From the NCBI GenBank assembly GCA_015501585.1, contig JADNRY010000060.1, positions 124,001 through 188,000 on the forward strand: 64,000 nt of DNA, written 5' to 3'. Made by a program: the position numbers and the translations under genes. Positions 4,815-62,494 of this stretch are shown one piece after another. How positions within the stretch are numbered: the first letter of the stretch is position 1; each line of letters starts with the position of its first letter. The notes under the pieces are model-generated. The model was not told where the DNA came from. It saw nothing but the letters and a program-made list of their open reading frames with translations, and did not search any database. The stretch comes from Rhodocollybia butyracea (Eukaryota; Basidiomycota; Agaricomycetes; Agaricales; Omphalotaceae).

Positions 4815-4853
4815 ACCAAGGTATTATTGAAGAACAACAACGAAGGTTGACCG

Positions 4854-9749: not shown

Positions 9750-9825
9750 AACAAGGCAGACGCAATGAGAATGACAACGGAAAGAACAACATTTAACAAC
9801 CAAACATGTCACGTTGTCTAGATAC

Positions 9826-30595: not shown

Positions 30596-31156
30596 GTTTG
30601 TTATGTCACGTATGTACATATAACACTAATTTATTGTCGGCCCTAGATTGTAGAAGGTACTAGTATACTACGATCTGTAGCCGCATGTTTTTTTGGCATC
30701 CCAATTACAGTGATGAAGGAAATGGAATTCGGTGATGCCTTCAGTTTGGTTCATACTCCAGAAGGTAACGTTTACCGGTAGGCTCGGAGATACGTCGTTC
30801 GAAAGGATTCCTTTCGGAATGACGAGAAGCACAGCGAGGATAAAAGCTTCAGAGGAAGGTTCTTCAACACGAGGCTTGGACGAAACAAAAAGTTCAGGGT
30901 CTTTTCAGAGTCAGATTCCGGTTGAGCTTTACACTTGTAAGAAGACGGTGTTGGATACGCCTACGAAAGGCTTGAGGCGCAATTAGCGCCTAAGCCGGCC
31001 GGAATTCCGGATCGGTCATGTAATGGCCTCTCGTCCTATGCTTGGAGCTTCTTGTGAACCATCACCAGCTCTCGCCAGTTCTCAAAGACGCGGCCTGCTC
31101 TTTGTCATTTCCAATGCTTTAACTCTCGAGCTTATCATAATATACTCACTGGCACA
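30596..31156. other. Spacer between A4 and ATG2
   Basis: A plus-strand open stretch near 30715-30986 (EFGDAFSLVHTPEGNVYR, then a Ser/Thr-rich segment) looks somewhat protein-like. It has no recognisable domain and may be a gene fragment. The rest is the ATG2 upstream region. Confidence 0.4.
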
Positions 31157-34100
31157 ATGTCCTGGTTTTCCTCTTGGCTTCCCAGTCTGCCATCTATCAA
31201 TTACTTCACCGTTCCATCTAGCATCCAGAGACGATTTATTTCCTTTGTTCTCAAACGCTCTTTGGGACATTTACTAAAGCCAGGGCAACTAGATATTCAG
31301 CAGATAGACTCTCAAATTGGATCTGGATACGTGCAGGTTAATGATCTTGAGCTGGATAATGATGTGCGTAAACTGTCTCTGATTTTGTTCGTTTCTCTAT
31401 TGAATCTCGCGTAGGCAATTAATGCATTTCTTCTGCAATCTGGACTACCTCTGGAGCTCGTAGAAGGATCACTAGCCTCCGTTACAGCTCGCATTCCTTG
31501 GCCAAATCCGCTCACTTCCACACTTGGCTTTTCTCTATCATCTCTTCACCTTACATTACGCGTTACACCTGTAGAAAAGTCGGCAGACAATACCAATATC
31601 AATCTCTCCGATTCTGTGGCTTCTTTCGCTGAATCATTCATACAGGACGAATTAACTCCTCGAGAAGGAGCGCATCTCCGGGAATCGTTCCGCGAAGATC
31701 TAGCCGCTTCTTTGCACGATGAAGCTGAGGATGATATGGTCCCTGGAGGTCTTAATCCCTTCAAGGATCCCTCGGAGGAGGAAGAAATGACAGACATTGA
31801 TCCTGATGGTGTATCCTTGTTTGCCACTCTGATTGAACGCCTTTTGGCCAAATTTGAATTTGACGCGATAGGAACAAGATTAACTATCGTTGACCCTCAG
31901 AATAGCAAGGTGTCGCTTTCCATCGCAAATATCAGCTATCGCACAGAGTTACCTTCAAGCGTGGACGACACTGACAACCGTGACGGTGAATCGCGCACTC
32001 TGTTAGTTTCCGGTGTCACCTTGAGTGCCAAGGATTTCCAATCTGTCTATTCCAAATCTCCAGTAAATATATCCGGTTCTTCCACAACACCCCGTTCATC
32101 TTCTCCCGCATCTTCTGCATCATCTATGGACGAAGAAGTTCAGTGGGCAATGTCTCAGTCCCTTGCTTTTCTACCACCCCGTGCTGCATCTCCTACTGGT
32201 TCTGCTGCTAGTAGCATGTATCAGAGCGCAGTATCTGGTCATGAATCATATACTGAGCAGCCGAGTCCTGTAGCAGAGAAACCTTCGCTATCCGTGCTCA
32301 CTCCTCCTTCTCCTCCCACCAGAGACTTCAAAGCTGACCCTCATGATACCGAGGATGAAACGGTCGCCTCTTTTGGGACGGATCCCATTATCATAAAGCT
32401 CACCACACCCTCCGTACGTGGACGGGTTCCTTCACAGACATATCTGGAGAAACTGCAGATATCTGTGGAGGTGGGCGTCATCAGCTGCGCCATTCGACCC
32501 TGGCATATACGAAGTATCGTACAACTAGTAAATTCTCTGATGTCCAGTCAGTGCAAACCGGCTTCAGTGCCTACTTCAACTGCTCAACTAAATCCTGGAG
32601 TGGCTAAATTGCTTTCTCTGAACGTCAAAGCGATTGAAGCTCTGTTTCTTAACCCCTCCGCCACTGCTAATATATCCCAACCCGCACTCGATCGCTATTT
32701 TTCTCGCCCACGAGTGCCTCCTGCCTTACCCGAAGGTTACGTGCGACTACTGTTGGATAACATCCTTGCCACAGCATCAATGACCACTGTGAGCTCGAAA
32801 ACTCGACAGGATTCAAACCCCAATGCTCAGACATCCGTAGTCTCTTTCTCCTTGTCACTCAACGAAATGTCCATTTTTGCTTCTCGTGCGACGACAGGCG
32901 GAAACGATGCAGAGTTACTAGCTTTCCCCATTATGATCACCGATCCTTTACTTCCATCTCAGTATTCCTCTGAGCCCACACATCCCAGTCCATCCTCGAC
33001 TACTGGAGAGTTCCCAACACTTCCTACCTTTGATGTCATAGATTGGATGGACGAAATGACTCATAAGCAAGGGATGAAGCTCTCTCCGTGGCGGACAAAA
33101 GTAAAGCAAAAGTCTGACACTGGTCGCGGAGAGACTTCGACGCCAGCTTTGCTGGTGCAGGGTGAGCGGCAGTCTCTCGATAGCCCATCACACAAGTCCA
33201 AGGTGTTGAAAGATGATTTGAGCCTGGATTTTGCTCCTCTCCAATTCTTTTTCGATCTACAGCATCTATTGGGTGAGGAGGGTATACCGATCTTTTTAAA
33301 TGAAGCTATGGGCGCCCTGAAAAGCTCGGATGGCATACCGGCCAAGGCTGATGTGACTGACTCTGACACGGAAGACAGAGATGGGGATACACCGCCAGCT
33401 ACTCCACGAGTCAGTAAATATCAGAATGGTGCAGTGGAGCGTGAACAAGAGCGAAAGAGACTGGAAAATCTAGTTCTACGAGATTTGGATTTGGACCTTG
33501 ATTATCGACGGCAAGTACCAGCAGCCGATTTCAAACAAAGTTCCGTCAAAGAAACTGCAGTATGTTGTATAGATAATGCGTATGACATTCTGATACTAAC
33601 GGTTAATTCAGCGTCGCTCGACGCCAAAGACGGCTTCAAACGTATGTGTAAAACTACCCTTCATTCGAACCAATATCAGATGCGGTTCGAACCACGACCG
33701 ACTGTCGCGTTCTGGGGCAGTTATCCTCGATATTCACAGCCTTACTCTAACAAAGGGACAGACGGTAATTTCAAGGAAAACAGCTTCTTTCGGGCCTCCG
33801 CCTCCAGCACAGCATACTCCTTTAAACGACGATGCGGTATTGACAGCTAGGTTCCAAAGGCTAGTTATTGCGTCGTCCCCGGCTGGGAGCTCGAAAGCTT
33901 TTGCACTCGTATCTTTGGGACATCTTCAGGATGAAACAGAGGCTCGATCTGAATCCGCGCCATTGTTACCTCGAGTCATTATTTCGCAGTCTCGAAAAGA
34001 CTTCAACTCCATAATGACAGTGAACTTGTTTCTGCCGTCGGCAATCATCAACATGACCAAGGAGTCTTTGGACGCTTTGCAGTACTGGGCAGATGACGCA

Positions 34101-37100
34101 TCTCGATTGGCTGAAAAGACCTCTGAATATTCCGAGGGCGACGGTGATACAGAGAAGGCAGCCAGCCGTGATAGCAGTTTGATAGGCAGCCGCTATTTCG
34201 CAAAGTCGAGAACGGGAAGCGGAAATACCAGCATAACAGACTCTCGTGAAGTCAAGACGGATACTGTCGTCAAGGTTACAGTCACTGAAGGTGATGAGGG
34301 TGGTAGCTTCTTTGCACCTTTACTGATTGCACCTATAGTTTTCATTAGAATTCACCTTCCAAGGAATAGTGGACAGTCCAATGTTACTCGCCCTTTTGAT
34401 ATCCTAGCTTCCGACGTTGAAGCTGTGGTCCAGGTGAAACCCGAGGGCAAAGTAATCTTTATTTAGAAACAAAACCCTCGTGGATAGCTGATTCTTTTCT
34501 GCAGGATGAAACTGTAGCGTCAATGGGACTGATGAATTTAGTGATAAATAACCACACTAGCACGGAAAGCTTTCATACTTTGGTATCACTTACGAAAGGT
34601 CGTGAACTGGTACATTTTTTTCTCGTCGAATTTTCGGAGATTATTGACAGTTTTCCATAGTTACTCACGCCCCAACCACTTATGAAGTTACGATTCTCCT
34701 CGATGACTGTTCCCGAAACAACAGCGAAAGAGTCAAGGATCCGACTCCATCTTTGGGGATTTACATACCACTCCCTCCCAGATATCAGTTGGATATCAGA
34801 CCTTGCTGTTTTTGCAAGTGCACCCCCAGGAGTACGTGGCATACCATCTATGCCATGAGTTCACTTTTATTTACTCTCGGTTTGCAGGCTTTTGAGACCG
34901 TCGTACCCAGTGAACGGACGAAAATCTCGTTGAAAATCGTAGATGGATCTGTGAAAGTACTCGCGCCTACCCATCCCGGCGCATTGCTCCTCCATATGGG
35001 GGATTTGGATTTCTCGACTGACCTTATTGGAGAATCGCCCGAACTGGCATTCATACTTAAAGTTCACTCAGCCGCACTACTGGCAATTGACGACATGGCG
35101 GAATATCGTACGAGTAGTGCATCTGCAGACGGCTTCTTGTACTGGAAGGTATGTTGTCCTAGCCATTCTTGCGCGTGTAATTGCTACAAAAAGATATTTT
35201 CAGAAATGTGGCTTCGCCTTGCTGGCTGAAATCGTAGACGTGGTGTTGGATTTCAAAGCCTTTAAAGATGCGACGACTCTAAACACCCGCGTTCGTATTT
35301 CTTTGGATATTTTCTTGTGCCGTAACATCAGAAACATCTGCAGGTCATCGCACAACGCCTGAACTTGCGCTTGCATCTGTGTGCCGACACAATGAGTGCA
35401 GCAGGTGACTTCATCAACGATCTTGTTGCGACGTTCAAGCCTCCTTCCGAACATCGGTATGTCATTCCTTTGACAATCAGACTATCGCTTATGCATTGTC
35501 CAGAACTTCTAAACCCAAACGAAGACCCATGGTAATTTCTGAAGATCACCACAACGCAGGAGGCATGATGTGTCAGTCAATAAATGCCTGTGCTGTCGAT
35601 TACAGAGTACTAACGAACCTCCAGCTTCCGTCGATGATACAGCGTTCAGGAAAGTTCCCGAGGTAGGTACTGCCGCCGACATGATATTCGATGACCTTCC
35701 GAGGAATCCCGATTACCTTGATGAATCGTTTGGTGCAGCGGGGGGGTTGAGGGAACTTCGTGAAGAAGACCTGGATGATTTTGACGACGAGGAAGTATTT
35801 CCTATATCTTCCACTGAGGACGTTGCTGGTGTTGTATCGATAGTCGGGGGCGAGACAATCCGCATGCTTCGTCCTGAAGGGATTCAAGTGGTAGACAACC
35901 ATTTTGGCAATCTGCCTTCAATTACAGAAAATAGTCCCACAGAGTGAGTGGGAGTGTATTCGTTCGGTGGGTTATTCGTTGATCGTCATTTAGTATAGGA
36001 GAAACCACGTTACACCTTCAAGTGCACAACGCAGACATCAACGTTTTCCTCTATGACGGCTACGACTGGGCAACTACTCGAAAAACGATCGAAAGCGAGG
36101 TTAAGGAAATGCGAAAGCGGTTGGCCAAAATTAGACAGCTCGTTGCCAAAGGCCAGACTCAGCAATCTGCCAATGTAGAGACCAGTGCCCTACTATTTAA
36201 TTCAGTATATATCGGCCTCAAGCAGGATGTGGAAGAACTCGACTCAAATGCCCTGATTGCGGCAATAGACGACGAACTGAAGGAAGATGTGGACGCGCCA
36301 ACGGAAAGTTCGTGGCAATCCTTACCGATCCCTTCCTCCTTGTCTGCTAAGCCTTTGGTGCCTTCCACTCGCTTGAACGGTAAACGTTTGGTGCGCGCAA
36401 AGAGTCCAAGTATCGAGTTCCGAATTGCAGGATTGGATGCCGATTTCGCTCAGTACTCCCCCGAAGATACCCTTGTTTCCCGAGTATTCGCGACCGTGAC
36501 CCACCTAGAAATCCTCGACCATATCAAGACTTCTACTTGGAAGAAGTTTTTGACTGCTCTACGCTCTGATTCTCGAGGAAATATTCGTGAAACAGGCTCA
36601 AACATGGTCAAGATGGAACTTCACACCATACGTCCAGTCCCGAACGATCCTTCGGAAGAGGCGAGATTAAAGGTGTGCTCACCTCATATTCATCGTCGGA
36701 TTGAATAGCTTATTTCGGATAGGCCAAAATCTTACCTTTACGTCTCCATGTTGACCAAGATGCTTTGGACTTTATGAAGAAATTTTTCAGCTTTACGGAC
36801 CCAAACAAACCATCAACATCTGTTGACCCCGACGACGGGATCTATTTCCGTAAGATAAAGTTTGGATGTAATCACACCTCGCTGACTGAAGAGACACAGA
36901 ACTAGCCGAGATTTTCCCTGTCGACCTGAAGCTCGACTACAAGCCTCGTCGTGTAGACTATCGAGCCTTGAAGGAAGGCAAAACCATTGAGTTGATGAAT
37001 TTCTTCCATTTTGACGGCGCCGAAATGACTCTACGGCATATCACTCTGTCTGGTGTATGATTTTTGTCACCCACCCGTTGAACTGATGATTTAACGTTAC

Positions 37101-37875
37101 GTTCCATGGTAGATTACTGGCTGGCCTCGATTAGGAGAACTGCTTAATGATCTTTGGACACCAGACGTAAAGGCAACTCAGTTGGTTGATGTAATTTCAG
37201 GTGTTGCCCCCATCCGCTCCGTGGTCAATGTTGGGTCTGGTATCGCGGACCTTGTCCTGCTGCCAATCGCCCAATACAAGAAAGATGGGAGAATTGTTCG
37301 TGGCGTGCAGAAGGGAACGACCGCTTTTGTAAAGTCTACTGCCATCGAAGCGATCAAACTCGGCGCCAAATTAGCGATAGGCACACAAGTTATTCTAGAA
37401 CAGGCGGAAGGTGTTCTGGGACCACAGTTCAAATATCCAGTTACCACCGAAACATTGCAATCTCCCAACTTTGGAGATGATCTTCTAGATGTTGGTCTTG
37501 TTAGTAGCGACGAAGAAGACCTCATCAGTAATTATGCTGATCAACCAGCGAATGTCAAAGAGGGAGTACAGTCTGCGTACAGGAGTTTGCAGAGAAATTT
37601 CAACTCTGCGGCTCAGACCATCTTGGCAGTTCCTATGGAAGTCTATGAGAGGTCCGGTAATGAGGTAGATAGCAAATTATTCAAAGTTCCTACGTGTACT
37701 GACGAGACCTCTTTCACAGGGTCCCGTTCGTTCTGTCATTCGAGCTGTTCCCATCGCTGTGCTGAAACCCATGATTGGGGCCAGCGAAGCCGTCAGTAAA
37801 ACTCTGCTTGGTCTTCACAACACGTTGGATCCGAATCTCCGACACGAGAACGATGCCAAATACAAGCACCGTTAA
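31157..37875 (+). CDS. ATG2: Autophagy-related protein 2 (lipid-transfer protein ATG2)
   Basis: ATG at 31157 opens [15 protein letters not shown] followed by the chorein-type N-terminus ([16 protein letters not shown], then [16 protein letters not shown]), the conserved entry of the lipid-transfer channel. A long middle part with Ser/Pro-rich loops is interrupted by short introns, for example near 31360-31415, 33565-33610 and 33640-33680. The C-terminal ATG2 block reads [22 protein letters not shown] and ends with [37 protein letters not shown] split over two exons, with TAA at 37873-37875. About 2,000 residues is normal for fungal ATG2. Known role: bridges ER and phagophore with ATG9 and ATG18 and moves phospholipid for autophagosome growth. 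I see no clear frame break, though not every intron was placed. Confidence 0.93.
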
Positions 37876-39647
37876 CATCGTTGACAAGTCCTTCCTCATC
37901 TTTAAATAGCAACACTAGCGTGTAATCATGTAAATAATAGGACATTGGATACTTATGTAGTATAAGGCCCTTAACTTAATTCCACGGTCTCGGTGTAAAA
38001 ACTTGAAGACCTTTACTTCTTTCCAACATGGAAGTCAGTATGACGAAAATAGAGATTTGAGGTTTTACAGATTGAGAAATTGAGAAACCAAGTACAGTAG
38101 AAATATATTCTCCAGCCCCTCAAGAGCAATGCGTATCGGAAGATGCAGGCGCGTTTTCAAGAGCAATCAATAGAAACTGGAGTTCGTCGTCGGATGACAT
38201 GAAAGTGATGGAGCACTCCAACCTTAATCACAGTCAGCCTGTATAAGGTCGGTTTTCATCATTTAATGTACTTTGTGATCAAAATACATTGATTCTACTG
38301 ACCTGACGTACTTTGAGCGAGTATTTCTACTGCATGTATGTACATGTCTCTCTGTGTTCTTCTTCTTCTGTACTTGGGGCTTGACTTGGGGCAAACTTGG
38401 GGTCACATCTTGTTCCTTTATCCTACATTATTTGCTGTTGCTCTAGTCCTTACTAGCTCTTATTTCTTTTACTGGTTATGCGTAACTGATCATTAACTTT
38501 CATTAACTTTCACTAGCACTGGATTGACTTCATTTGAGTGCAGATAAATGATAAGATCCGACGGATGGCAAAGTCACGTGCGAAAACCAGTCATGAGCGC
38601 CAAAGTCGCGTCGCGTACCAGGAAGTGAGCAAATATCACTATCACATTTCTAAATAGATGCATTGATCCCTAGTATGGATCGCTAATCAGCTGTGAATAC
38701 TATATCTGGATAGATGTAGTTGGATTGTAGTATCTTACAGGGAAACTATACATATTATCAGTGTTGAAGCCTCTGTCCTTGATTCTTGCAAAGAGATGAT
38801 GGCTGCTGAATACTTCATCCATTGTCTCATCTAGCCGTCACTGAGATTGATTTGGCTGAAACCTTGAAGACCCTCAAAGAGAAAGCCACCGCTTTTAATG
38901 CTCTCCCTTTATGTTTGGGCAGAGCTCAGATGGCCGATCGGGTCAAGGTCTCCCAAGCGCTAGCTGTAAAAATACAAGCCTGTGAGCTCACTGACGAGGT
39001 TGAAGAGACCTTTCCAGCTGTGGGGAGAGTTATTGGGGAGGCTTGTAATGCCACCGAGACATAAATTGTAACAATATTGGAAAATAAGCACATACAAACT
39101 GCCCATGGCTTGCGAGTCAGGGAACATTGTAAACACTTGTAGCATAAGCGGTGGTGGTACTGCAAGAAGTCCGATTCTGTGCAATGGGATGCAACTGATA
39201 CATGAGAGTGAAGAATGCGAGCAATGAGCATAAAACATTTCGAGAGCAAACGAGCCCAATACTACCAAGTTGGGGCAACATGAGCAGCATCGGCAGCGGC
39301 TGCTACATGCTGTATCTGCCGGGCTTTGGCCCCGGAGCGAGACGAGCAATCAACATAAGAGGAGTGTTTGAGCCATTCCGAGTGACGGGTGTTTCTTCAA
39401 CGACGGCGCTATCTTGCTGCCCGGAGAACAAATCGCGCGAGCATGTGACAATCATGTGCTCCGGCGCTTAATCGTTCCGTTGGATCATTAGAGCGTATTT
39501 GCACAGGGTGTTTTTTCGTGGATGATCGCCGAGATAGTAACGAGATGAAAGGCGTGACTCCAGAGGACTAACATCCGACGGGGAGCTACGATTTTCCTTT
39601 TCTGGACCTACCCGGCCATTTGCTTCACAGTCCGATGGAGCGTGGTG
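37876..39647. other. Intergenic region between ATG2 and the giant inverted repeat
   Basis: The first 900 bp look non-coding. At 38822-39064 an open plus-strand frame of 80 residues (TEIDLAETLKTLKEKATAF...) is helix-like but has no recognisable homologue; it is a candidate small gene or fragment. From 39489 to 39647 the sequence shares two short motifs with the other flank of the inverted repeat: a 15-mer in inverted orientation and a 30-bp direct match. Confidence 0.45.
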
Positions 39648-39972
39648 GGCTACATCGCCAATCCAAGGGTTATGTAACTTGGACCGTTTGGACCGTTCTC
39701 TTCCGACCTGGACCGTTTTGACCGTTTTTCTCCGTTTAGTCTTGTGACACTTGACTGTCAGCCGCCGTGTGCTTTTTTCGTCGCGCGCAGGATCCATCGT
39801 ACTTTATAGCTCACCCTAATATTCAACTTATAACTGCTCCAATATTCTTCACTTAATCCCTACAAACTTCTCCAAATCAGCCCCTCCTCTTGCCTAAACC
39901 ATGGATCAAGCCTTAAATGGAGAAAATTTAGAAGGTGGGAGTTGAACAGGTGCAGAAAATGGAGACTCGGAT

Positions 39973-40626
39973 ATGGAAGACTCGGATACTATGAAAGATA
40001 CATATGGAACACGGTATGTTATCCATCCCTGTCTCTAGCCTCCCTTTGAAGCTGATAATTACAGGATTCAACTCTCAGCTCATGTTCGCTCTCAATCTGT
40101 TCCTGCAGTTTCCATCTCATGCAGCCGCTGTGTGTGTGTTTTGCATACTCAGAAAACCTATCCATTCTATCAGCATTCCTCTGGTACCATTATCCATCTG
40201 GCCGACATTTGGAGGCTATCCTGTGGACACTATCTGCACCTTCACTGTCTTGTGGAGTACCTTCGAGCTCGGGATATGATCTGCATGAAACCTTGGGCAC
40301 CCAGACCACCTAGACCTGCAAATGGCACTATCAGAACCTGGCGATGTCCTGCCCATGGTTGCCAATTCACTTTTCAAACAATTCGACGACATCCGATATA
40401 TACTTTTGATTCAAGAGATGGACTACCAATGGCAATTCCAAATGCTGTTGGCTGGAGACAGAGCGTTGGAGGCCGATGCAACTGGAGTATATATTTTCAT
40501 AGTGTTGACGATGCTAATTTACTTGCGGTTATTGTACCCGACATTCTTCCAGCATTACTAGGTAGTGAGGACTGTTTCATGTTGCCTCCCTGCCCGCTTT
40601 TTACAACTACAGCTACACTAATTTAG
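39973..40626 (+). CDS. RING-H2 zinc-finger protein of the mobile unit (left arm)
   Basis: Exon 1 runs from an in-frame Met at 39973 to 40013, a 51-nt GT..AG intron covers 40014-40064, and exon 2 ends at 40626. The ring reads CSRC, about 32 residues, CGHYLHLHC, then CPAHGC, i.e. Cx2C...CxHx2Hx2C...C, a RING-H2 arrangement. That suggests an E3 ubiquitin-ligase-like protein, or simply a zinc-binding domain carried by the transposon. An earlier in-frame Met at 39901 meets TGA at 39943-39945, so either the later Met is used or the original N-terminus is broken. The same state in the other arm shows it predates the duplication. The gene converges on the transposase-like gene of the same arm. Confidence 0.65.
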
Positions 40627-40742
40627 TTCTTATATTATCGTTGTTTATATCAATTCTAGCTCTGTTTTTCTTCCCAATCTGAACACTTCTGTGAGATAAA
40701 TCACTTGCATAGGATAGCTAAAGTATATACATATGAGTATGG

Positions 40743-43700
40743 CTATTTTGGTTCATTTAAACAATCAAGACGAAGCGCAATACATTTATCAGAGGTTGGG
40801 TCCATCGTAAAGAGTGCTTCTGGTGCCATTCCAAAGATAAGTTCATCCCCTAAGCATGCGAGCTTGAAAAAACAGCTGCCATACTCGTCAAACTCGATAT
40901 TTGAATGAAGGAATTGGCCGAATGCCTTGTACTCCAAGGAAAGCTCTCCATCAGCCTGTTCCTTGCCGATTACAACCATTTCATACATATTGCGCAGCGT
41001 TTGAAGGAACGTTATGGGGTTGAATTAAACTCCTTTGACGAATATACCCACTGGCTGTGGGAAGGGAATTGCCCTGTGTACCTGTTTGACGCCATCTGAG
41101 CAGTATCCGCGCTTGTGATTCTGCGCATGGCCAGTCACAAACGGATACATGATAGTTTGGCAACGGCCACATGTCTGAGGTTTTCGCTAGACATGCGGTT
41201 AGTGGAATCATAAATGTAGATATTCAAGCGACGTACTGTAGAATCTATACCCTTCACCTGCACAAGAGAAACTGCCTCACAATGTCTTGTCCAGAAGGTT
41301 GTTGAACCGCGTTTGGCTATAACAAGTAGTGTAAGTTGATGCTAGTATCTGCAGAGACAACGTACACTTGAAATTTTTTACAGCAATGCACTCGGAAATC
41401 GTCTTCTCTATATCCCCAAGTTTACCTAATAAAGCTCGAGGAAGTTTTCGAATGGCAGAAGGGTCTTTTTGCTGTAGTCGTTCGTTGTAAGCTATGGTGG
41501 CCACTGCCCACTTGCGCGGAGTCATGGAATAAGAGACCCATTGCCCTTCAGCACACATGTCCATGAAGAGGTGGAATTCTGCAGTTGTTTTGATATGCAA
41601 AGCCTCTGGATTGACTCCGGTGCTTCTGGAAAAAAGGTATTCTGAGCGAGATTGACGTGATGTGGTGTTACCAGATGGGAGTGGAAGAGGTTGTGCAAGA
41701 GTTGATGAAGCGCTGGTTGGAGAAGTGGATGATGTAGTAGATGGACTTGGTTTGGAAGACTCCGCGGCAACAGGGGCGGCCTTCGCACTAGTGCTCGAGC
41801 TTGAGAATGAAGCAAAAAATGAATGGTCTGGTTTCTAGAAACAATCTGTTAGGACAGAAAAACCAGTATTATTAACAGTTACCTTTTTTACAGTGGCAAG
41901 GGCTGAAGCAACCGTTGCAGCAGTACATGCGCGCTTGGTTGGCGATGTTTCAGGAAATTCAACTGGTGAGGCCGAAATCTCACTTGCTTTTCGTTTACCA
42001 TTGGAAGCCAAAGTTCTCGAGTGACTAGTAGACTATGAAATGAAATGATGGTCAAGTTATATAAACAGACAGAAAATATCTTCATGCACAACAACTTCAA
42101 GGCTCTCATTGTTGTCGGCCTTCACAGAAACCTATCAAAACTCAATCAACCATCGCTCGAAATTGAAAGCGAATAAATCTGACGTACATTGCTGGAATTG
42201 AGTTCAGTGCCAGATGCAAACAGCATGGCATCGTCTTCATCCTCCTCCATCTTGAAGAGACCCTCAAAAGTAAGTGCATTTTCAGACCTGACAAGCCCAA
42301 ATGACTCTGAAGATGATATAACCGGGAGTTCTGGTAAGTGATGAGCGTCTCGATTCAGTATAGGATGGGATGGGATGAGTTTATTTGTGAGACTAGCAAT
42401 CGACGCGACAAGTCGGATGCGATGTGAACCGAATGTTGATTTTAGAAAAAGGTCTTCTGGAGTGTTTTTGAGCCCCATTCGAATATTACGGCGCAGAACA
42501 AATTCTGTACAGAGAGCATTCATGACAGGAAGACCACTCGCGAATGATCTTTGAAGGCTATTCCATCCTTTATGGGATCCTTCAATGCAGCTACCATCAG
42601 AGCAAATGTCCTGGCGAGTACGGGTAAGGCACCCTCGTGCAACATGCTTCATTTGCTCCTGATGAATCTGTAATAAACATTAGAGTAGCTTGAACTGGTA
42701 TATAAATTTCTTACGCCTGCTGCTGACGCATTCCAACAGCCTTTTTCAGCCCACTTTTGATACATCTCTTCCAACAGCTTCCCTTGCTCATCCTTGGTGC
42801 GGTACTCAGTAACTCCATTGGCAGAATCAGCGGCATGGGTTTTGAGCAGAGCATGACTGACTTCACTCGCAATTGCACCAGCATGTGGATTTTTTGTTCC
42901 GTTGAGAACACCTCCAGTATATCTGAAGATATAATGAGTAATATTAGCAATTAATGAGCAGTGGAAGGCCTACCGCTGGATAACGTGATGGACATCCTGC
43001 CCCACATGAGTATTTGGAAATACCTTTGAGATTTTAGGTCGAACGGTGCAGCAATTGTCAACGATTATCTCATCTGGATCTTCTTCTCCAAGTTTGCGAT
43101 ATTGTATTTTGAGTTGCGTGAGTGCTTCTGAGATTTCTTCAACGCTCTGAGTTAAGCAAAAGCGCTACCAAAAATTGTCAGTAGCTGAAGAGTCATTAGC
43201 AATAATAGACTAAACAGCTTACCCAACTAAGAATCTGATTTTTCTCATTGATGATGCTTAACGTCCCACCACTGATTGGCCGGCTACGTTCATGACTTGA
43301 ACTTGCAATACTTGCTTTGCTTGCTGCACGGAAAGTGTGATCCAGTGAAAGTACACGTCCTAGCATGATTGCATTATGAAAAAGACAATGAATATCTTGA
43401 ATAATCACATACCCATAATAGTTTGCAGATACTGAGCTGATTCGTCTTTCCCAGTTTGATCATAGTGCTGTAATAAAACCTGAGTTATAATATCGCTGGA
43501 GATACAGTCATTTTTGGGATCCGGGAAGTTCAGAAGAGGTAGCGGCTTCATTGGCGTTGCAGGTCGTAGTTGGTAATATCGCAAATAATCTTGATGTTTA
43601 CAAAAATATTCGGCAATATGAAGTTCTTCAATAAAATTAGCTAGTCACATCTGGAAATGGTCTAGGACATACGCTCAATGTTTTCGGCAAGTCCGCCAGA

Positions 43701-44505
43701 GGTTCCCGAGAGGCAAAGCTCAAGAATCATGTCATAGAGCGGCCTTGTGAGAGCACAACGCTGAAAGAAGTGCGGAATCCCCCCTAAAAAAACATTAATG
43801 ATGGATTGGCAGTGGTTTTCTGCGTGAACATACTAGGTATCTCATAGCCCTGCATTTTCTCCCAAAATATAGGACTAGTTGTGGCAAAACAGGATTCCAT
43901 GTTTTGCTTGCCTTCAGCGCAGGATTGACATCGTAACTGATAACCAAGTGCTGACTCTTCAGAGTCAATACCATGAACAGCACAAGAACCATATGTGGTC
44001 CAACCATCCCAAGTGATTGTTTTTGAGTTACAACGTGGACAGCAGTCTGCAATTTCAGGGTAGTAGAAGGGATGTATGACATTAAGCGGCTTCAAGAGCA
44101 TAGCCTCTGGTTGGATATCAGCAATAAAACTTCTCTTTGTAAGATGAAGGTAGGTTGGAGGGGTGAAGTGAGGACCTAGAAGTGGGACATCAAGTGGCAA
44201 GCTGGGTTGCGCAAGGCTTGTCTTCTTAATCAACATGATTTTTGCCACATATTTCACATATGCAACAATATGTGACTCCCAGCATAATTGAGCTTCCACA
44301 ACAGATTGCTTGGACTGATTGCGGCGAGTGATCCACTTCTGCATGCGTTTCTCGACCTAGAAAGAAGAAAGTTAAGATATTGTAACAAAAATTTGAACCC
44401 TCATACCTCGTTATTCCAAGATGTTACAAATTCATCTTGTTTATTCTTTGGCTCGCGACTTTTCAGCAGTTTGAGCACAACAGCGGGCTCAAAAACAGAA
44501 GACAT
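40743..44505 (-). CDS. DDE-type transposase-like gene, left arm
   Basis: This is the mirror image of 46155-49917; the coding start is at 44503-44505 (MSSVFEPAVVLKLLKS). A zinc-ribbon-like segment (CPRCNSK...RCQSC) comes before a probable RNase H-like core with acidic positions in VLSLDHTF, IIVDNCC and CIEGSHKGWNSLQRS. A Ser-rich linker follows, then a second Cys/His cluster (CGRCQ...GHAQNHKRGYC). An in-frame TAA at 41025-41027 interrupts the reading before the conserved-looking last 95 residues, which end at 40743. The only amino-acid difference from the right arm is His in LLGPHFTPP, where the right arm has Arg. About ten short introns are present. The family name is uncertain; see the right-arm entry. 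Confidence 0.6.
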
Positions 44506-45247
44506 GGATCAAGAGTGACACGCGCTAATTGAGGGCAGCTCAGTTTCGGTCAAGATTTGGTCTGAGTTCCTACGTAACATAATTGAGCAGCTTGGATACA
44601 ACAACTCAGAAGAAGCAAGTAAGAGCTTTATAGGCAAATGTATGATTAGTCTTTTTGGCAGTAAGAGGCAAGTAAGAGGGAGGAGATCTGAAAGATAGGA
44701 CATGTTAAATACTTGTTTTTCCTGCAGTTTTTCACTAAAATTGCTGTTGAAGCAGGCTTAAGGCTAGGAACACAAGATAGCTGCACTGAATATATTACCG
44801 TAAAGTGGGTCCACTGCAAGGAGAGTATATTTGCGCAAGGTTAGTCAGGGGGACAGATGCAAGGCAAAGCCTACCTTGACAGGAGGTTTATAGACTATTC
44901 ATGGAAGTGTCCAAGGTCCAAAATACTAAAGCTGACTGGAACGTGAGGCAAGAACCATCACAAATGTTCCGGCAATCAGAAGTAGGGCGAAGTGAGCTGG
45001 CTTGATGATCTTACTGACAATTTAGTTCAATTCAATCAGAGTATGTAGATTTACGGCGAAGGAAACTGTAGCACAATAAAGGTACAAATAAAGGTACAAG
45101 GTTAGGACTCAGAGCGTAAGAAGAGATATGCAGCAAGTGGTACATGGGGGAGACCCTGGGTCCATTTGGTTCCGTGCACTGATACAGCCCTGGGAAGACT
45201 TATGCGCCGCCTGCGGCGTCGCCCACCCTGGGAATGACCAATTTTTC

Positions 45248-45412
45248 TCGTGGTGTTGCTGGATATTCCTTTTTTGGAAATATCTAGCTGTCTAAAAGAG
45301 TGCGGTGGTCCTGGACCTTCCTTTTTTGGAAATATCTGACAAACTCAGTTGTCTTCAGATCTTCCTTTTTTGGGAATACCTAGCCATCGTGATCATTTTC
45401 ATTATTTGTGAG
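45248..45412. repeat. 165-bp asymmetric centre of the palindrome with three short repeats
   Basis: It is not part of either arm. It contains three related copies of TTCCTTTTTTGG(A/G)AATA, starting near 45266, 45318 and 45362, spaced 52 and 44 bp. The unequal sequence on the two sides argues against a simple fold-back read artefact centred here. It could be the original DNA between two insertions, or a remnant of element ends. Confidence 0.7.
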
Positions 45413-46154
45413 GAAAAATTGGTCATTCCCAGGGTGGGCGACGCCGCAGGCGGCGCATAAGTCTTCCCAGGGCTGTATCAGTGCACGGAACCAAATGGAC
45501 CCAGGGTCTCCCCCATGTACCACTTGCTGCATATCTCTTCTTACGCTCTGAGTCCTAACCTTGTACCTTTATTTGTACCTTTATTGTGCTACAGTTTCCT
45601 TCGCCGTAAATCTACATACTCTGATTGAATTGAACTAAATTGTCAGTAAGATCATCAAGCCAGCTCACTTCGCCCTACTTCTGATTGCCGGAACATTTGT
45701 GATGGTTCTTGCCTCACGTTCCAGTCAGCTTTAGTATTTTGGACCTTGGACACTTCCATGAATAGTCTATAAACCTCCTGTCAAGGTAGGCTTTGCCTTG
45801 CATCTGTCCCCCTGACTAACCTTGCGCAAATATACTCTCCTTGCAGTGGACCCACTTTACGGTAATATATTCAGTGCAGCTATCTTGTGTTCCTAGCCTT
45901 AAGCCTGCTTCAACAGCAATTTTAGTGAAAAACTGCAGGAAAAACAAGTATTTAACATGTCCTATCTTTCAGATCTCCTCCCTCTTACTTGCCTCTTACT
46001 GCCAAAAAGACTAATCATACATTTGCCTATAAAGCTCTTACTTGCTTCTTCTGAGTTGTTGTATCCAAGCTGCTCAATTATGTTACGTAGGAACTCAGAC
46101 CAAATCTTGACCGAAACTGAGCTGCCCTCAATTAGCGCGTGTCACTCTTGATCC

Positions 46155-49100
46155 ATGTCTTCTGTTTTTGAGCCCGCTGTTGTGCTCAAACTGCTGAAAA
46201 GTCGCGAGCCAAAGAATAAACAAGATGAATTTGTAACATCTTGGAATAACGAGGTATGAGGGTTCAAATTTTTGTTACAATATCTTAACTTTCTTCTTTC
46301 TAGGTCGAGAAACGCATGCAGAAGTGGATCACTCGCCGCAATCAGTCCAAGCAATCTGTTGTGGAAGCTCAATTATGCTGGGAGTCACATATTGTTGCAT
46401 ATGTGAAATATGTGGCAAAAATCATGTTGATTAAGAAGACAAGCCTTGCGCAACCCAGCTTGCCACTTGATGTCCCACTTCTAGGTCCTCGCTTCACCCC
46501 TCCAACCTACCTTCATCTTACAAAGAGAAGTTTTATTGCTGATATCCAACCAGAGGCTATGCTCTTGAAGCCGCTTAATGTCATACATCCCTTCTACTAC
46601 CCTGAAATTGCAGACTGCTGTCCACGTTGTAACTCAAAAACAATCACTTGGGATGGTTGGACCACATATGGTTCTTGTGCTGTTCATGGTATTGACTCTG
46701 AAGAGTCAGCACTTGGTTATCAGTTACGATGTCAATCCTGCGCTGAAGGCAAGCAAAACATGGAATCCTGTTTTGCCACAACTAGTCCTATATTTTGGGA
46801 GAAAATGCAGGGCTATGAGATACCTAGTATGTTCACGCAGAAAACCACTGCCAATCCATCATTAATGTTTTTTTAGGGGGGATTCCGCACTTCTTTCAGC
46901 GTTGTGCTCTCACAAGGCCGCTCTATGACATGATTCTTGAGCTTTGCCTCTCGGGAACCTCTGGCGGACTTGCCGAAAACATTGAGCGTATGTCCTAGAC
47001 CATTTCCAGATGTGACTAGCTAATTTTATTGAAGAACTTCATATTGCCGAATATTTTTGTAAACATCAAGATTATTTGCGATATTACCAACTACGACCTG
47101 CAACGCCAATGAAGCCGCTACCTCTTCTGAACTTCCCGGATCCCAAAAATGACTGTATCTCCAGCGATATTATAACTCAGGTTTTATTACAGCACTATGA
47201 TCAAACTGGGAAAGACGAATCAGCTCAGTATCTGCAAACTATTATGGGTATGTGATTATTCAAGATATTCATTGTCTTTTTCATAATGCAATCATGCTAG
47301 GACGTGTACTTTCACTGGATCACACTTTCCGTGCAGCAAGCAAAGCAAGTATTGCAAGTTCAAGTCATGAACGTAGCCGGCCAATCAGTGGTGGGACGTT
47401 AAGCATCATCAATGAGAAAAATCAGATTCTTAGTTGGGTAAGCTGTTTAGTCTATTATTGCTAATGACTCTTCAGCTACTGACAATTTTTGGTAGCGCTT
47501 TTGCTTAACTCAGAGCGTTGAAGAAATCTCAGAAGCACTCACGCAACTCAAAATACAATATCGCAAACTTGGAGAAGAAGATCCAGATGAGATAATCGTT
47601 GACAATTGCTGCACCGTTCGACCTAAAATCTCAAAGGTATTTCCAAATACTCATGTGGGGCAGGATGTCCATCACGTTATCCAGCGGTAGGCCTTCCACT
47701 GCTCATTAATTGCTAATATTACTCATTATATCTTCAGATATACTGGAGGTGTTCTCAACGGAACAAAAAATCCACATGCTGGTGCAATTGCGAGTGAAGT
47801 CAGTCATGCTCTGCTCAAAACCCATGCCGCTGATTCTGCCAATGGAGTTACTGAGTACCGCACCAAGGATGAGCAAGGGAAGCTGTTGGAAGAGATGTAT
47901 CAAAAGTGGGCTGAAAAAGGCTGTTGGAATGCGTCAGCAGCAGGCGTAAGAAATTTATATACCAGTTCAAGCTACTCTAATGTTTATTACAGATTCATCA
48001 GGAGCAAATGAAGCATGTTGCACGAGGGTGCCTTACCCGTACTCGCCAGGACATTTGCTCTGATGGTAGCTGCATTGAAGGATCCCATAAAGGATGGAAT
48101 AGCCTTCAAAGATCATTCGCGAGTGGTCTTCCTGTCATGAATGCTCTCTGTACAGAATTTGTTCTGCGCCGTAATATTCGAATGGGGCTCAAAAACACTC
48201 CAGAAGACCTTTTTCTAAAATCAACATTCGGTTCACATCGCATCCGACTTGTCGCGTCGATTGCTAGTCTCACAAATAAACTCATCCCATCCCATCCTAT
48301 ACTGAATCGAGACGCTCATCACTTACCAGAACTCCCGGTTATATCATCTTCAGAGTCATTTGGGCTTGTCAGGTCTGAAAATGCACTTACTTTTGAGGGT
48401 CTCTTCAAGATGGAGGAGGATGAAGACGATGCCATGCTGTTTGCATCTGGCACTGAACTCAATTCCAGCAATGTACGTCAGATTTATTCGCTTTCAATTT
48501 CGAGCGATGGTTGATTGAGTTTTGATAGGTTTCTGTGAAGGCCGACAACAATGAGAGCCTTGAAGTTGTTGTGCATGAAGATATTTTCTGTCTGTTTATA
48601 TAACTTGACCATCATTTCATTTCATAGTCTACTAGTCACTCGAGAACTTTGGCTTCCAATGGTAAACGAAAAGCAAGTGAGATTTCGGCCTCACCAGTTG
48701 AATTTCCTGAAACATCGCCAACCAAGCGCGCATGTACTGCTGCAACGGTTGCTTCAGCCCTTGCCACTGTAAAAAAGGTAACTGTTAATAATACTGGTTT
48801 TTCTGTCCTAACAGATTGTTTCTAGAAACCAGACCATTCATTTTTTGCTTCATTCTCAAGCTCGAGCACTAGTGCGAAGGCCGCCCCTGTTGCCGCGGAG
48901 TCTTCCAAACCAAGTCCATCTACTACATCATCCACTTCTCCAACCAGCGCTTCATCAACTCTTGCACAACCTCTTCCACTCCCATCTGGTAACACCACAT
49001 CACGTCAATCTCGCTCAGAATACCTTTTTTCCAGAAGCACCGGAGTCAATCCAGAGGCTTTGCATATCAAAACAACTGCAGAATTCCACCTCTTCATGGA

Positions 49101-49917
49101 CATGTGTGCTGAAGGGCAATGGGTCTCTTATTCCATGACTCCGCGCAAGTGGGCAGTGGCCACCATAGCTTACAACGAACGACTACAGCAAAAAGACCCT
49201 TCTGCCATTCGAAAACTTCCTCGAGCTTTATTAGGTAAACTTGGGGATATAGAGAAGACGATTTCCGAGTGCATTGCTGTAAAAAATTTCAAGTGTACGT
49301 TGTCTCTGCAGATACTAGCATCAACTTACACTACTTGTTATAGCCAAACGCGGTTCAACAACCTTCTGGACAAGACATTGTGAGGCAGTTTCTCTTGTGC
49401 AGGTGAAGGGTATAGATTCTACAGTACGTCGCTTGAATATCTACATTTATGATTCCACTAACCGCATGTCTAGCGAAAACCTCAGACATGTGGCCGTTGC
49501 CAAACTATCATGTATCCGTTTGTGACTGGCCATGCGCAGAATCACAAGCGCGGATACTGCTCAGATGGCGTCAAACAGGTACACAGGGCAATTCCCTTCC
49601 CACAGCCAGTGGGTATATTCGTCAAAGGAGTTTAATTCAACCCCATAACGTTCCTTCAAACGCTGCGCAATATGTATGAAATGGTTGTAATCGGCAAGGA
49701 ACAGGCTGATGGAGAGCTTTCCTTGGAGTACAAGGCATTCGGCCAATTCCTTCATTCAAATATCGAGTTTGACGAGTATGGCAGCTGTTTTTTCAAGCTC
49801 GCATGCTTAGGGGATGAACTTATCTTTGGAATGGCACCAGAAGCACTCTTTACGATGGACCCAACCTCTGATAAATGTATTGCGCTTCGTCTTGATTGTT
49901 TAAATGAACCAAAATAG
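46155..49917 (+). CDS. DDE-type transposase-like gene, right arm
   Basis: Exon 1 starts MSSVFEPAVVLKLLKS and splices at NNE/VEK (intron about 46254-46303). Next comes a zinc-ribbon-like module: CPRCNSKTITWDGW, about 30 residues, then YQLRCQSC. Several introns later LSLDHTF, IIVDNCCTVR and SCIEGSHKGWNSLQRS supply well-spaced acidic residues of a likely DDE/RNase H core. A Ser-rich linker and a C-terminal CGRCQ...GHAQNHKRGYCSDG cluster follow. The reading VGIFVKGV stops at TAA 49633-49635. The same frame resumes as FNPITFLQTLRNMYEMVV to 49917, which looks like one interrupted C-terminus, so a nonsense change is likely. Alternatives are an unseen intron or a two-gene reading. I do not recognise the superfamily; it may belong to an uncharacterised fungal DUF-type transposase group. 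Confidence 0.6.
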
Positions 49918-50033
49918 CCATACTCATATGTATATACTTTAGCTATCCTATGCAAGTGATTTATCTCACAGAAGTGTTCAGATTGGGAAGAAAAACAGAG
50001 CTAGAATTGATATAAACAACGATAATATAAGAA

Positions 50034-50687
50034 CTAAATTAGTGTAGCTGTAGTTGTAAAAAGCGGGCAGGGAGGCAACATGAAACAGTCCTCACTACCT
50101 AGTAATGCTGGAAGAATGTCGGGTACAATAACCGCAAGTAAATTAGCATCGTCAACACTATGAAAATATATACTCCAGTTGCATCGGCCTCCAACGCTCT
50201 GTCTCCAGCCAACAGCATTTGGAATTGCCATTGGTAGTCCATCTCTTGAATCAAAAGTATATATCGGATGTCGTCGAATTGTTTGAAAAGTGAATTGGCA
50301 ACCATGGGCAGGACATCGCCAGGTTCTGATAGTGCCATTTGCAGGTCTAGGTGGTCTGGGTGCCCAAGGTTTCATGCAGATCATATCCCGAGCTCGAAGG
50401 TACTCCACAAGACAGTGAAGGTGCAGATAGTGTCCACAGGATAGCCTCCAAATGTCGGCCAGATGGATAATGGTACCAGAGGAATGCTGATAGAATGGAT
50501 AGGTTTTCTGAGTATGCAAAACACACACACAGCGGCTGCATGAGATGGAAACTGCAGGAACAGATTGAGAGCGAACATGAGCTGAGAGTTGAATCCTGTA
50601 ATTATCAGCTTCAAAGGGAGGCTAGAGACAGGGATGGATAACATACCGTGTTCCATATGTATCTTTCATAGTATCCGAGTCTTCCAT
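50034..50687 (-). CDS. RING-H2 zinc-finger protein of the mobile unit (right arm)
   Basis: This is the exact mirror copy of 39973-40626, with the intron at 50596-50646. The translations of the two copies are identical, including CGHYLHLHC and CPAHGC of the ring, and the upstream in-frame TGA is shared. The gene converges on the right-arm transposase-like gene, with about 115 bp between stops. Identity of the two copies implies a very recent duplication. Confidence 0.65.
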
Positions 50688-51012
50688 ATCCGAGTCTCCA
50701 TTTTCTGCACCTGTTCAACTCCCACCTTCTAAATTTTCTCCATTTAAGGCTTGATCCATGGTTTAGGCAAGAGGAGGGGCTGATTTGGAGAAGTTTGTAG
50801 GGATTAAGTGAAGAATATTGGAGCAGTTATAAGTTGAATATTAGGGTGAGCTATAAAGTACGATGGATCCTGCGCGCGACGAAAAAAGCACACGGCGGCT
50901 GACAGTCAAGTGTCACAAGACTAAACGGAGAAAAACGGTCAAAACGGTCCAGGTCGGAAGAGAACGGTCCAAACGGTCCAAGTTACATAACCCTTGGATT
51001 GGCGATGTAGCC

Positions 51013-52365
51013 TTTGTGAGCTAGTGCTTCAAGCACATGATCAATGAGATACTGACGAGATGAAACCCGCTGCAAATACGCTCTATCATCTATCTCTGCC
51101 TGTCAGTATCTAATTATGGCATCTAATAGCATCTAATGCACACCTAGTCAGAGTTAAAAGACTAGTACATGCTTTTGAATGTCTACAATGCCAACAAAGT
51201 ACACAAACAAAGTACATTTTTTGATGTAAAGTAGGATGTACCCGAACACCAAAGTACGATCAATAGGCCTCTTTAAATGATGAAAACCGACGTCATAAGC
51301 CTGCCATGGGGATCAGTAATGATAGTACGGTAGCCTGCTTTCACCTTATAGTAGACTTTACTTGTAAAACACTCAGACACAGTACAATGGCCCTGTTCAC
51401 GAATTTTCTCGTACAATATTCTTTGCGCCTATTTGAGTTAGCAATACCAAACTGCATCCCAAGTTCAGTTCAGCGTAGTAGGAGGACTTTTTTTCAAATC
51501 GTTGAAGAGCGGCAATAAATATTAATACAGAACAAAGATACACAAATGATACATGTCAACTATTTATTTCTTCACTACTCAAGTTTGAAAGTGTCCTGAC
51601 ACGAAATACATATTGTAATATTTACTAGCCATCCCCTCTTACTATTTTTATTGGATCAGTCTCAATAGCAGAAGTGAAAACTATGTCCACAGATCTATTT
51701 CAATTCCGTTGACTGGATGTGTTCGGTTGGTGTTCGGATGAAGATTAACAATAACTTAGTCCAAAGTATGAAATATCTAGAGACACTTATGTCCAGTAAT
51801 ACTTCCTTTCGTATGGTGCAATATGAGAGGCCCGTAATACTTACCATGGACTAGTCCCTCTCGTATCTGTCAATGCTTTTGTGCGTTCCTAGTCCTGGCG
51901 CTAGTGTACACAGCAACGGCAGCGACAGATGCCCTCGGCACATATCTAAGGCGCGATATGTAGCGGGGAACCCGGCTGTTTCTAAATGGGACCGCGCCGG
52001 TTTTACCTACCTACCTACCTTATGGCGACAGATTATGGTGACACGGGTAGTCTGAATGATATTGTTTGTAAATGATCCATGTTGAATCTCAAGAGTCAAC
52101 ACAGTTACTAACTTAGTACTGTTGACATTGAGGATGTGGATGTGAGTAAGATATCGAATGAAATTCGGTGTCTTGCCTTTGTATTGATGTAGAAGAAAAA
52201 TCACCCCAACGTTAGTTTTAGACGCTGAATACTTTTATAGTAAACTTTACTGAGGAAAATACTGAGGATTTTAAAAACGCACGCGCGCTTAACATATCAA
52301 CGTAGAGCTCATAGTATCGTGGGAATGATGGGGTGATAGAAAGCGGACCGGCAATAACACATAAA
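51013..52365. other. Spacer between the inverted repeat and the nested MITEs
   Basis: No supportable gene. Near the left edge (51036-51085) lie a 30-bp segment and a 15-mer also found in the flank of the left arm. A (CTAC)n-like stretch is near 52010. The short open frames have no domains. Confidence 0.5.
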
Positions 52366-52763
52366 GGGCTGCTCAATTCCACTCGCCTGTCACTCACGAG
52401 TGAAATCAAATGCGAGCTGATATAGGGCTGTTCAATTCTAATTGCATCAAAAATCGCGAGCGCTCACGATTTACTCAAATGAGAGCCGACCTGAGCCGAC
52501 GAGTGCCACCCTGACCAACCCTGACCAATAACCAGAGGCGCACGAACCTCCGCACCCTCACAGTTTGGCTTGTTCTTGCTTTTTGGTAGTACCCATGCCC
52601 TAAGTAATGTGTGGGTCATTCAACAGAGGTAAAAATGGTACAAATTAACCAAAAAAATAATGTCCTCCTAGTCCCTACAGCCTCCTAAGGCTCGGTGAGT
52701 CCAGTCATTGCTTTGGCATTGCACCTGATGTAAGCATCAGGTGGCATTGTCGGCCTCCCATTT

Positions 52764-55889: not shown

Positions 55890-58720
55890 ATAATCTAACT
55901 ATGACTTCGTTGATCTCAGATTATATCCGGGTAGGAGACTCGAAAACATCATCGTTATCATCACCGATTCTCGATCTTTTAGCAGTGGAAGATGAACGGG
56001 TCGTCCTTTGTGGTATACCGTGACTTCGTTGGGGGCGACCGATATCCGGTTCTTCCATTGCATCGATCACGGATTTTGATATGGCTGATCGTGGTGGTGG
56101 TGGTGTAACCGACGTGGTCCCATTGAGGAACAGTCGGGGCCCCAGCTACATGTGGAGTAGTAGAATGTAGAACACGGAGCAATCCTATCTCAGGGTGCCG
56201 ATCCGGCAGTGCTTGAAGAGCTTCCTCAAGAAGTTCTTCATTAGATGGACTATCCTGGTGCGCTACTGTTAGAATACTTGTGGACTGGGCCAGCTTGAAC
56301 ACGACTTACCTCTGCAAGAAGATCGGTAGGAGTCATTCCATTCCCAATATCCTGTAATGTGGCTATCATCATCATCAGGGACTGCTCGTAGGGCAACCCA
56401 ACATCGAGTATAGTCCTCCAGCCTCAATATGAAGTATAGTGTCGTTGCATTCTGCCCTATGTGTCTACAGAAAGGAATACCACGAGCATCCTTCATCCAG
56501 CCAAGTACCTCAGCGGCACAAGAAGCAGTGAAAACTAACTGAGAAGCTATCTTGGGCGAGTATTCAACTACTGTTTCTCGGGCACTTTCTCCTCCACGCA
56601 GTGCAACAAGCCGCGCGCGCGGAGATGCCCACGCAGGCAACGAAGAAGTGGAGAAGGAGAAAGCATCACAGACTAAATGAGGGGCTTTGAAGCACAGTGC
56701 AGTTGCGATAATCCGATTTGTATACCAGAGGTTCATCCGAAAAGTGGAAAGATGAAAGGAAGCTGTCCAAGTTAGGAATTAATAGAGATTTCTGTGAAAG
56801 CCACTGTGCAATCGCAATTATTACTAGAGGTTCTTCTGCAGATATGGTTGCCATTTTGTTGTCAATGAAATGTCCAAAACCAAATGACACCCAAAGTATG
56901 TCCAGAACTGGTGAGGAGGTGGTCCGATAATCCCCAATTAGGTGCTTCATGAGGATATGTTGCATGTTGATGCGTAAGTTATGTACTTGACTGGAGTTCA
57001 ACTAGTTGGTTTTCATGAAACAAATCAGACTCACAATCATCTAGTTCTTCTAACGGAAGACCATCGAATTGTGGATAACGTCGTGGCACTTCGGTGCGCA
57101 GGAATTCATTAGCATCCGTAGGCCAAAAACCAGTGAACTGCCTCAGATAAGTGTTCAAAAGATAATCTGGAATCTGGAATCCATTCTCGACTGTGGAGAT
57201 GAATGCCGCAGTGAAACGATGTCTGTGAAAATATCTTCAATCAGTAAAGGTGTTTGTGAAAGAGTGACAAACATTACCTCCCGCGAAGCCATACCCACAT
57301 ACGATGCAAAAGATGCTGACCAGAAGGAGAATTAACCAGGCCCGAAGTAAAAATTTGAGATCATATTGCTGTTGATCCTCAATAGTACTGAAAGCACCAA
57401 TGGAAGATATCCACTGCCATTGATTCCATTTTTCTTCTCTGGAATACATCCTGGAAATATGTGTTCCAGCAGCTACGATTGTGACAGGCTTATTGCGCAA
57501 ATGGAAATCCCAAGTTTCTAAAATTTCCTTGAGTACTGGATGAGGGCCATGAGCATCTCGAAAAGCATCCGCAAGCGATTCGGCCATAACGGTTGACTCA
57601 TCAAGAACAACGAAGAAATGAGGATCCTTTGGTTTACGGGAGAAGACAGCTGCTATGTCTTCTAAGCACTGTGAGATGCAGTCAGCAAGCAGAGCATCGC
57701 TAACAAGAGAGCGACAAAGTTCAGGTGCTAAACTCTCATAGTTCACGCCAAAAACAAGAGGCCGAATCTGAGCGAGAAACCACCGAGATTTATGTACTTC
57801 CTCAATTTCCCCTTTAGCCATCAGGTCAACAAATAACTTGAAAACAAGGAGTCGGGCCAGTAACGTCTGGCCAAATTCACGGCGTGCAATTTCACCATTT
57901 GTTGATATTTTGTATTCATAATCCGCCTCGTCCTCCAGAGGAAAGGTGAACATTCGGCTGAACGGAAGCTTCTGGACAAGCACATCGATATCGGTAGAAC
58001 CCAGCATGTAAGAGTCGACCGCTGCTGTGAAGAAGAGACCCCAGGATTTACAAAGGCCTTCATATAAAAGCCTCGTTTTGCCAGTCCCCGATGAGTTCAC
58101 CAAAAATCTAGAATGCAAAGACTTGAATATATTGTTCAAAACTGTAGGCAAGAACGAACGTGTTTCGTGTAGGAGAAAAGATTTGTTCTAGTCGCTCGTT
58201 AAGCTTAGGGTCCGATTGGAAGCTTCCACTCTCATGGAGCAAGAGTAAGGGCTTAGTATCTCCATACAGGCAAGGAATATTGAGTTGCTTGATATGCTCT
58301 GCTATATCCGGTTTACCAGCAGCTAAAGGATCTTCTGAGCGCCACGGAGCGAAACTTCCGAACGCAGTCCCGTCAACGACTTTCTTCATGTGTATGTGCA
58401 TAGTTTCGAGGAGGTCAAAGACACTCCGAAATTCTTTCCGGTAGTAAATCATTTGGCGCGGATGGTGAGGTAAATCTGGGAACATGGTGAGCATCCCAAA
58501 AATTGACACATGTAGGAGACACACCAGCATCCTTTAAAATACTCGGATCTTTTTCTGCGTATGCCTGTTCCACCAATCCCCATAGCTTAGGATTACGTTC
58601 CAGTAAAATCGCGCAGCACTGTACCTAAACCAGCGCTGGGTCAAGTTCTAGATCGGCCCACTGAATGGTCGTCAAGTATTCTGAAAGATACTCGCTCGTG
58701 CCATCTTTAGCCACAGACAT
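55890..58720 (-). pseudogene. Family A copy A5, multiply disrupted
   Basis: The start codon is at 58720 (MSVAKDGTSEYLSEYL). In the N-terminal domain the serine of LVSVQCC has become TAG (58625-58627), and three extra bases sit at TTIQWADL. The P-loop exon (57237-58151 region) keeps VNSSGTGKTRLL and FFVVLDES. A lost base at LKFLLRAWL shifts the frame before WVWLRG. The nuclease-like part (56269-57001 region) keeps IGQNATTLYF...VALRAV, again without PD..QxK. The tail has suffered internal deletion: only a degraded EEPDIGR..RTTRSSS segment remains before homology ends at the edge of outer element O. Clearly a pseudogene unless heavily edited transcripts exist, which I do not suggest. Confidence 0.82.
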
Positions 58721-58766
58721 AACAAGGGAATGGCAATGAGTTGGATGACAAGAGAGGGATAGATAC

Positions 58767-60417: not shown

Positions 60418-60563
60418 GCGAAGAAGCCTCAGTGAAGGAATCAATCGAGAAGGGACAGAATAGTAAAATCAAAGCATGACACTCGGTCCGCCGGGCCACA
60501 TCCGACCAACAAGCGCTTGTGAACCGGCGGCATCGAATTGAAGTTGCGATTTTTTCCAGTCCC

Positions 60564-61119: not shown

Positions 61120-62494
<1,375 letters not shown>

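Follow-up and report, generated by a model that had tools for sequence, protein, structure and literature searches.

Our analysis suggests that the 11.4-kb palindrome in Rhodocollybia butyracea very probably consists of two complete copies of one transposon, T, which entered one 379-bp MITE, M, in two separate insertions and lie in opposite orientations. The palindrome lies in a window of 64,000 nucleotides, the whole stretch of DNA that was analysed, on contig C939 of the assembly that we searched (95.6 Mb, 1,381 contigs). As the sequence shows, the locus was built up in layers, an older host repeat (H) receiving M, and M then receiving both copies of T. It represents a known kind of event, one transposon inserted twice at one spot, and not a new kind of element.

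The two arms (Table 1) are inverted copies of 5,600 bp whose mirror coordinates sum to 90660, every base a being paired with base 90660-a. Self-BLAST returned a single inverted match (39648-45247 / 51012-45413, 99.98% over 5,600 bases), and mismatches are dense directly outside the arms (39647 and below) and inside them (45248 onward). An inverted match of 5,600 bp is far beyond chance, and the window contains no N. The centre (45248-45412) is 165 bp long and asymmetric. The first-pass annotation of this DNA had given the same coordinates, arm length, single substitution, indel-free arms and non-symmetric centre, all of which mirror pairing and self-BLAST reproduced exactly. It had also correctly read the arms as transposons with divergent transposase genes, but had not noticed that the centre and the outer flanks are pieces of one MITE or that each arm has a target-site duplication. 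The pair is young or homogenised. Gene conversion between the arms could be an alternative way of keeping them alike.

The evidence for separate insertions comes from the flanks. Each copy of T is bordered by an 8-bp target-site duplication, identical at 8/8 positions for the right copy and 7/8 for the left, a size within the 8-11 bp range of Mutator/IS256-like transposons. The two insertions made separate 8-bp duplications, so that the 165-bp centre is the part of M that separates the two insertion points. When the three pieces of M in the window are joined, they form one 379-bp repeat that is found whole elsewhere in the assembly: searches with the flanks and the centre showed repeats that run from left flank through centre to right flank unbroken. 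In an alignment of 15 copies of M, the left T target is crossed by 15/15 and the right one by 14/15, the fifteenth (L021) departing from the alignment near the right T target; three pairs of aligned loci have common outer flanks, and independent copies are therefore fewer than rows. Each T target region is present once in the uninterrupted copies. Next to the left insertion, at 45248-45275, the window differs from other copies of M three times within about 25 bases: the duplication has a mismatch at its first base, one T is additional, and one A replaces a T. These differences make the fit to the double insertion less than perfect and are possibly repair errors during insertion.

Table 1. Features of the palindrome and its surroundings (positions in the window)
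Feature	Position	Strand	Remark
ATG2, gene end	37182-37799		ordinary host gene, close to H on its left side
Host repeat H, left part	38242-39489		matches elsewhere in assembly
3-bp duplication of M insertion	left 39487-39489 (ATT); right partner 51085-51087 (ATC)		mismatched pair in window
MITE M, left piece	39490-39647		terminal inverted repeat AGAGCGTATTTGC; matches elsewhere
Target-site duplication, left T copy, outer	39640-39647		GCGTGGTG
Transposon T, left copy	39648-45247	-	palindrome arm, self-match, target-site duplication
RING-like ORF, left T	40039-40626	+	mirror of right ORF
Transposase gene, left T	41025-44505	-	mirror of right; 1 residue differs, His for Arg
Sole arm-arm substitution	44169, partner 46491		mirror pairing; no indels
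Target-site duplication, left T copy, inner	45248-45255		TCGTGGTG, 1 mismatch vs GCGTGGTG
MITE M, middle piece	45256-45412		forms palindrome centre together with 45248-45255
Target-site duplication, right T copy, inner	45405-45412		TTTGTGAG
Transposon T, right copy	45413-51012	+	palindrome arm, self-match, target-site duplication
Transposase gene, right T	46155-49635	+	13-exon model; stop codon 49633-49635; deposited 954-aa protein
RING-like ORF, right T	50034-50621	-	antisense to transposase; near T outer end
Target-site duplication, right T copy, outer	51013-51020		TTTGTGAG
MITE M, right piece	51021-51084		ends in inverted repeat GCAAATACGCTCT
Host repeat H, right part	51085-51297		matches elsewhere in assembly
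Mitochondrial ribosomal protein mL59	59845-60444		ordinary host gene
Ribosomal L4 family protein	61460-62062		ordinary host gene

The outer layers show the same nested arrangement. Six of the seven H loci fetched (L004-L010) run uninterrupted from the left part into 51085-51297, without M. The repeat M has the features of a MITE: it is short, non-coding and present in many copies, with 13-bp terminal inverted repeats and a target duplication. Among the 22 M loci examined, 17 have the exact 5' motif and 14 of those have both ends; these two-ended copies span 368-378 bp, and 12/14 carry identical 3-bp duplications. Elsewhere in the window, we observed a repeated gene family at 1339-4821, 6270-9756, 56168-58740 and, inverted, 29013-30135, whose copies are 81-89% identical. 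Its frames contain a motif, SGTGKTRLLYEGL, that looks like a P-loop, and Pfam gave no match for the one frame searched (3349-4248).

The transposase gene starts near the inner end of T, and the pair is therefore head-to-head. All 12 introns of the modelled gene are GT..AG, and the protein of the arm is 100% identical to R. butyracea BDP27DRAFT_1421866; our own splice choice for exon 9 makes a two-residue difference from the deposited protein. The database cluster of BDP27DRAFT_1421866 has two member sequences from one contig, which would fit one member per arm. The stop codon (mirror at 41025-41027) is present in both arms and in the deposited 954-aa protein, and the C-terminal stretch beyond it is kept in 23/24 aligned relatives. 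Past this stop, the reading frame stays open for 93 codons. At the single arm difference the right arm carries Arg and the left arm His. The 24 aligned relatives have Arg (15), Lys (4), His (1), other residues (2) or gaps (2) at this position, and the left arm is probably the bearer of the changed residue, given Arg in 15/24 relatives and His in 1/24. The high-ranking named proteins among the 40 returned come from Agaricomycetes such as Gymnopus, Bondarzewia, Sparassis, Mycena and Suillus, and the other relatives in the protein search are distant (34-54% identity).

T is a DNA transposon of Mutator/IS256-like type, judged by its 8-bp target duplications and its transposase. The latter has a predicted DDE catalytic core with an RNase-H fold, in which a helical insertion precedes the final acidic residue, and the closest structure to this core is the ISCth4 transposase, of the IS256 family, although ISCth4 is bacterial, much shorter and only about 10% identical to T in sequence. 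We use the term 'Mutator/IS256-like', and do not file T under MULE, because its match to the Pfam MULE profile is under the cut-off (15.6 bits for the P0001-like query vs 27.6). Searching 25 relatives against Pfam at E <= 0.01 gave MULE for one of 25 and DDE_Tnp_ISL3 for one of 25. In NCBIfam P0001 matched nothing and P0002 matched IS1249 weakly (E 0.02), and the PDB had none for P0001 by sequence search and one by profile, at E 0.99. An identity as KDZ transposase was rejected, being without support from any Pfam family. Terminal inverted repeats are long in most MULEs and absent in some; the ends of T match weakly when inverted (14/23 terminal bases, and 11 out of 20,000 randomly paired stretches of T score as high).

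A divergent relative in the same genome, T2 (locus L079/L080, C1:748411-754462), is flanked by a perfect 8-bp duplication, ACCGAGAG (8/8), and its ends, of which 13/23 terminal bases match inverted, are similar to those of T. The duplication and the similar ends support the boundaries of T and the size of its target duplications. T2-like copies also occur at C1 near 993 kb and at C763, both read at the 5' end. The DNA of T2 includes a homologue, 40% identical, of the RING-like ORF of T. In Pfam, the latter matches zf-RING_Vps41 at E 0.0085, under the cut-off of the family, and none of its 58 candidates in the protein database reached E <= 0.001. Judged from these sequences, the family of T may have a second gene here that is conserved but for the most part missing from annotations. 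In either arm the RING-like gene and the transposase gene point towards each other, an arrangement that a lone T would share.

How did one M come to hold two copies of T? Given two insertions, it is somewhat more likely than not that one T is the offspring of the other through a hop over a short distance. We regard this as the likeliest route because the family has two copies within 165 bp, which share the stop codon and differ once in 5,600 bp. By our own arithmetic, a random second insertion would fall within 165 bp in about 330/95.6 million cases, i.e. 3.5 in a million. A whole-arm search of the assembly, in which common words were skipped, found only the two arms among the matches listed, and no T in other copies of M. 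A local hop would leave the donor in place, through transposition around replication, sister-chromatid repair, or copy-out, and would account for a stop codon common to both arms, for their differing at one base, and for the absence of other copies. The main rival, possible if clearly less favoured, is that the two copies came in independently of each other, their donors having since been lost or left out of the assembly, with T favouring M or similar DNA. M is a multicopy repeat and one M did take both insertions. Yet, T is absent from other copies of M, and from elsewhere, among the matches listed, and T2 lies outside M, judged by its flanks. Besides, the common stop codon and the single difference require a recent common donor, and the donors would have to be gone.

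The separate insertions themselves also have competitors. The first-pass annotation had raised the possibility of an assembly artefact. In its simple form, a fold-back read or a missed adapter, this is contradicted by the two different target duplications, which a fold-back cannot yield. There is still the possibility of a haplotype switch, in which T at the left site in one nucleus and T at the right site in the other were joined within the 165-bp centre. The assembly does contain duplicated stretches, including the three pairs of M loci with common outer flanks and contig C1321, which matches 17300-22560 at 100% and is, among the matches listed, a second, unmerged copy. Furthermore, the available text of PMC8480192 names short- and long-read assemblers for 14 species collectively. 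Short reads, however, would hardly resolve 5.6-kb arms with one difference, and a long-read assembler would not be expected to join on a 165-bp overlap. We searched for an allelic contig of the locus (30200-38241 and 51298-52420) and found none, two of the searches scoring 40/137 and 40/342 candidates. We consider a haplotype-switch assembly error decidedly unlikely.

Two further origins proposed in the first-pass annotation are excluded for practical purposes by the two different 8-bp target duplications and by a centre that is the middle of M. An inverted duplication of one inserted T, by hairpin-primed repair or template switch, would explain arms that are 99.98% identical and inverted about a short spacer, but the identity ends exactly at the ends of T, the target duplications of the arms differ (the TTTGTGAG pair would have to be chance), and the spacer, a piece of M present once, is in line with the outer flanks on either side. 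A dimeric transposon moving as one 11.4-kb unit would have the observed symmetric ends and two transposase genes, but the outer flanks lack a common 8-bp duplication (GCGTGGTG left, TTTGTGAG right), the centre is the very piece of M that they lack between them, and no second locus with the head-to-head layout was among the assembly matches listed.

The double insertion shows that a long near-perfect palindrome can come from a pair of ordinary insertions. It also shows that one assembly can be enough to prove this, by way of the target-site duplications and of uninterrupted copies of the nested repeats. It provides a base-exact case, in a basidiomycete, of a transposon inserted twice within 165 bp, from a family that is missed at the Pfam cut-off. 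The palindrome may also have consequences for the locus. As to the double-stranded RNA raised in the first-pass annotation, the transposase transcripts would run outward from the centre and, both being sense, would form no duplex. A hairpin RNA would arise only from a transcript that reads through the centre, e.g. one from a RING-like gene. The facing ends of T could undergo alternative transposition if transposase were present. Taken jointly, these effects would make the locus a live rearrangement hotspot following a 165-bp hop, with T silenced by 5.6-kb hairpin RNA, a combination that we find doubtful. Transposase from T or T2 would use the facing ends together, and some nuclei would lose the spacer as circles, or have the region downstream of the ATG2-like gene inverted or deleted, while a read-through transcript from the RING-like gene would form the 5.6-kb hairpin that silences T. 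Such silencing, if true, would explain why T remains at two copies.

Our search of the literature on R. butyracea transposable elements and related topics returned no title concerning the T pair, but several of its traits have counterparts in other systems. The available text of PMC6446971 describes Mutator-like elements with 8-11 bp target duplications, some of them without long terminal inverted repeats, and elements with second ORFs, such as Mutyl with the antisense MutB and Ghost with a RING ORF. By these descriptions, T resembles Mutyl in having an antisense ORF and Ghost in that this ORF is RING-like, although it remains under the Pfam MULE cut-off. Local hopping, with a preference for linked target sites, is described for P elements and Ac/Ds in the accessible parts of PMC7776569 and PMC3470690; both belong to other superfamilies than T, and the scale quoted for P is 50-150 kb. 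Head-to-tail double insertions are cited as common for class II transposons in the portion of PMC12368964 at hand, whereas the T pair is head-to-head; neither that paper nor PMC4334395 altered our interpretation.

A close parallel is the VANDAL21 pair V21_4/V21_5 of Arabidopsis thaliana Tsu-0, which, according to the available sections of PMC12312487, is arranged head-to-head about a spacer some 200 bp long. In met1 mutants the pair is presented there as an alternative-transposition hotspot, where deletions of the spacer, inversions and circles of spacer DNA were seen; alternative transposition itself was described for Ac/Ds and is proposed for the VANDAL21 pair. As far as these sections go, the two cases are alike in having same-family Mutator-like elements head-to-head within one disrupted sequence, the spacer being 165 bp for T. 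They differ in that the T spacer is intact in the single assembly known, and in that T belongs to another transposon family in another kingdom. The palindrome offers a fungal locus suited to testing alternative transposition.
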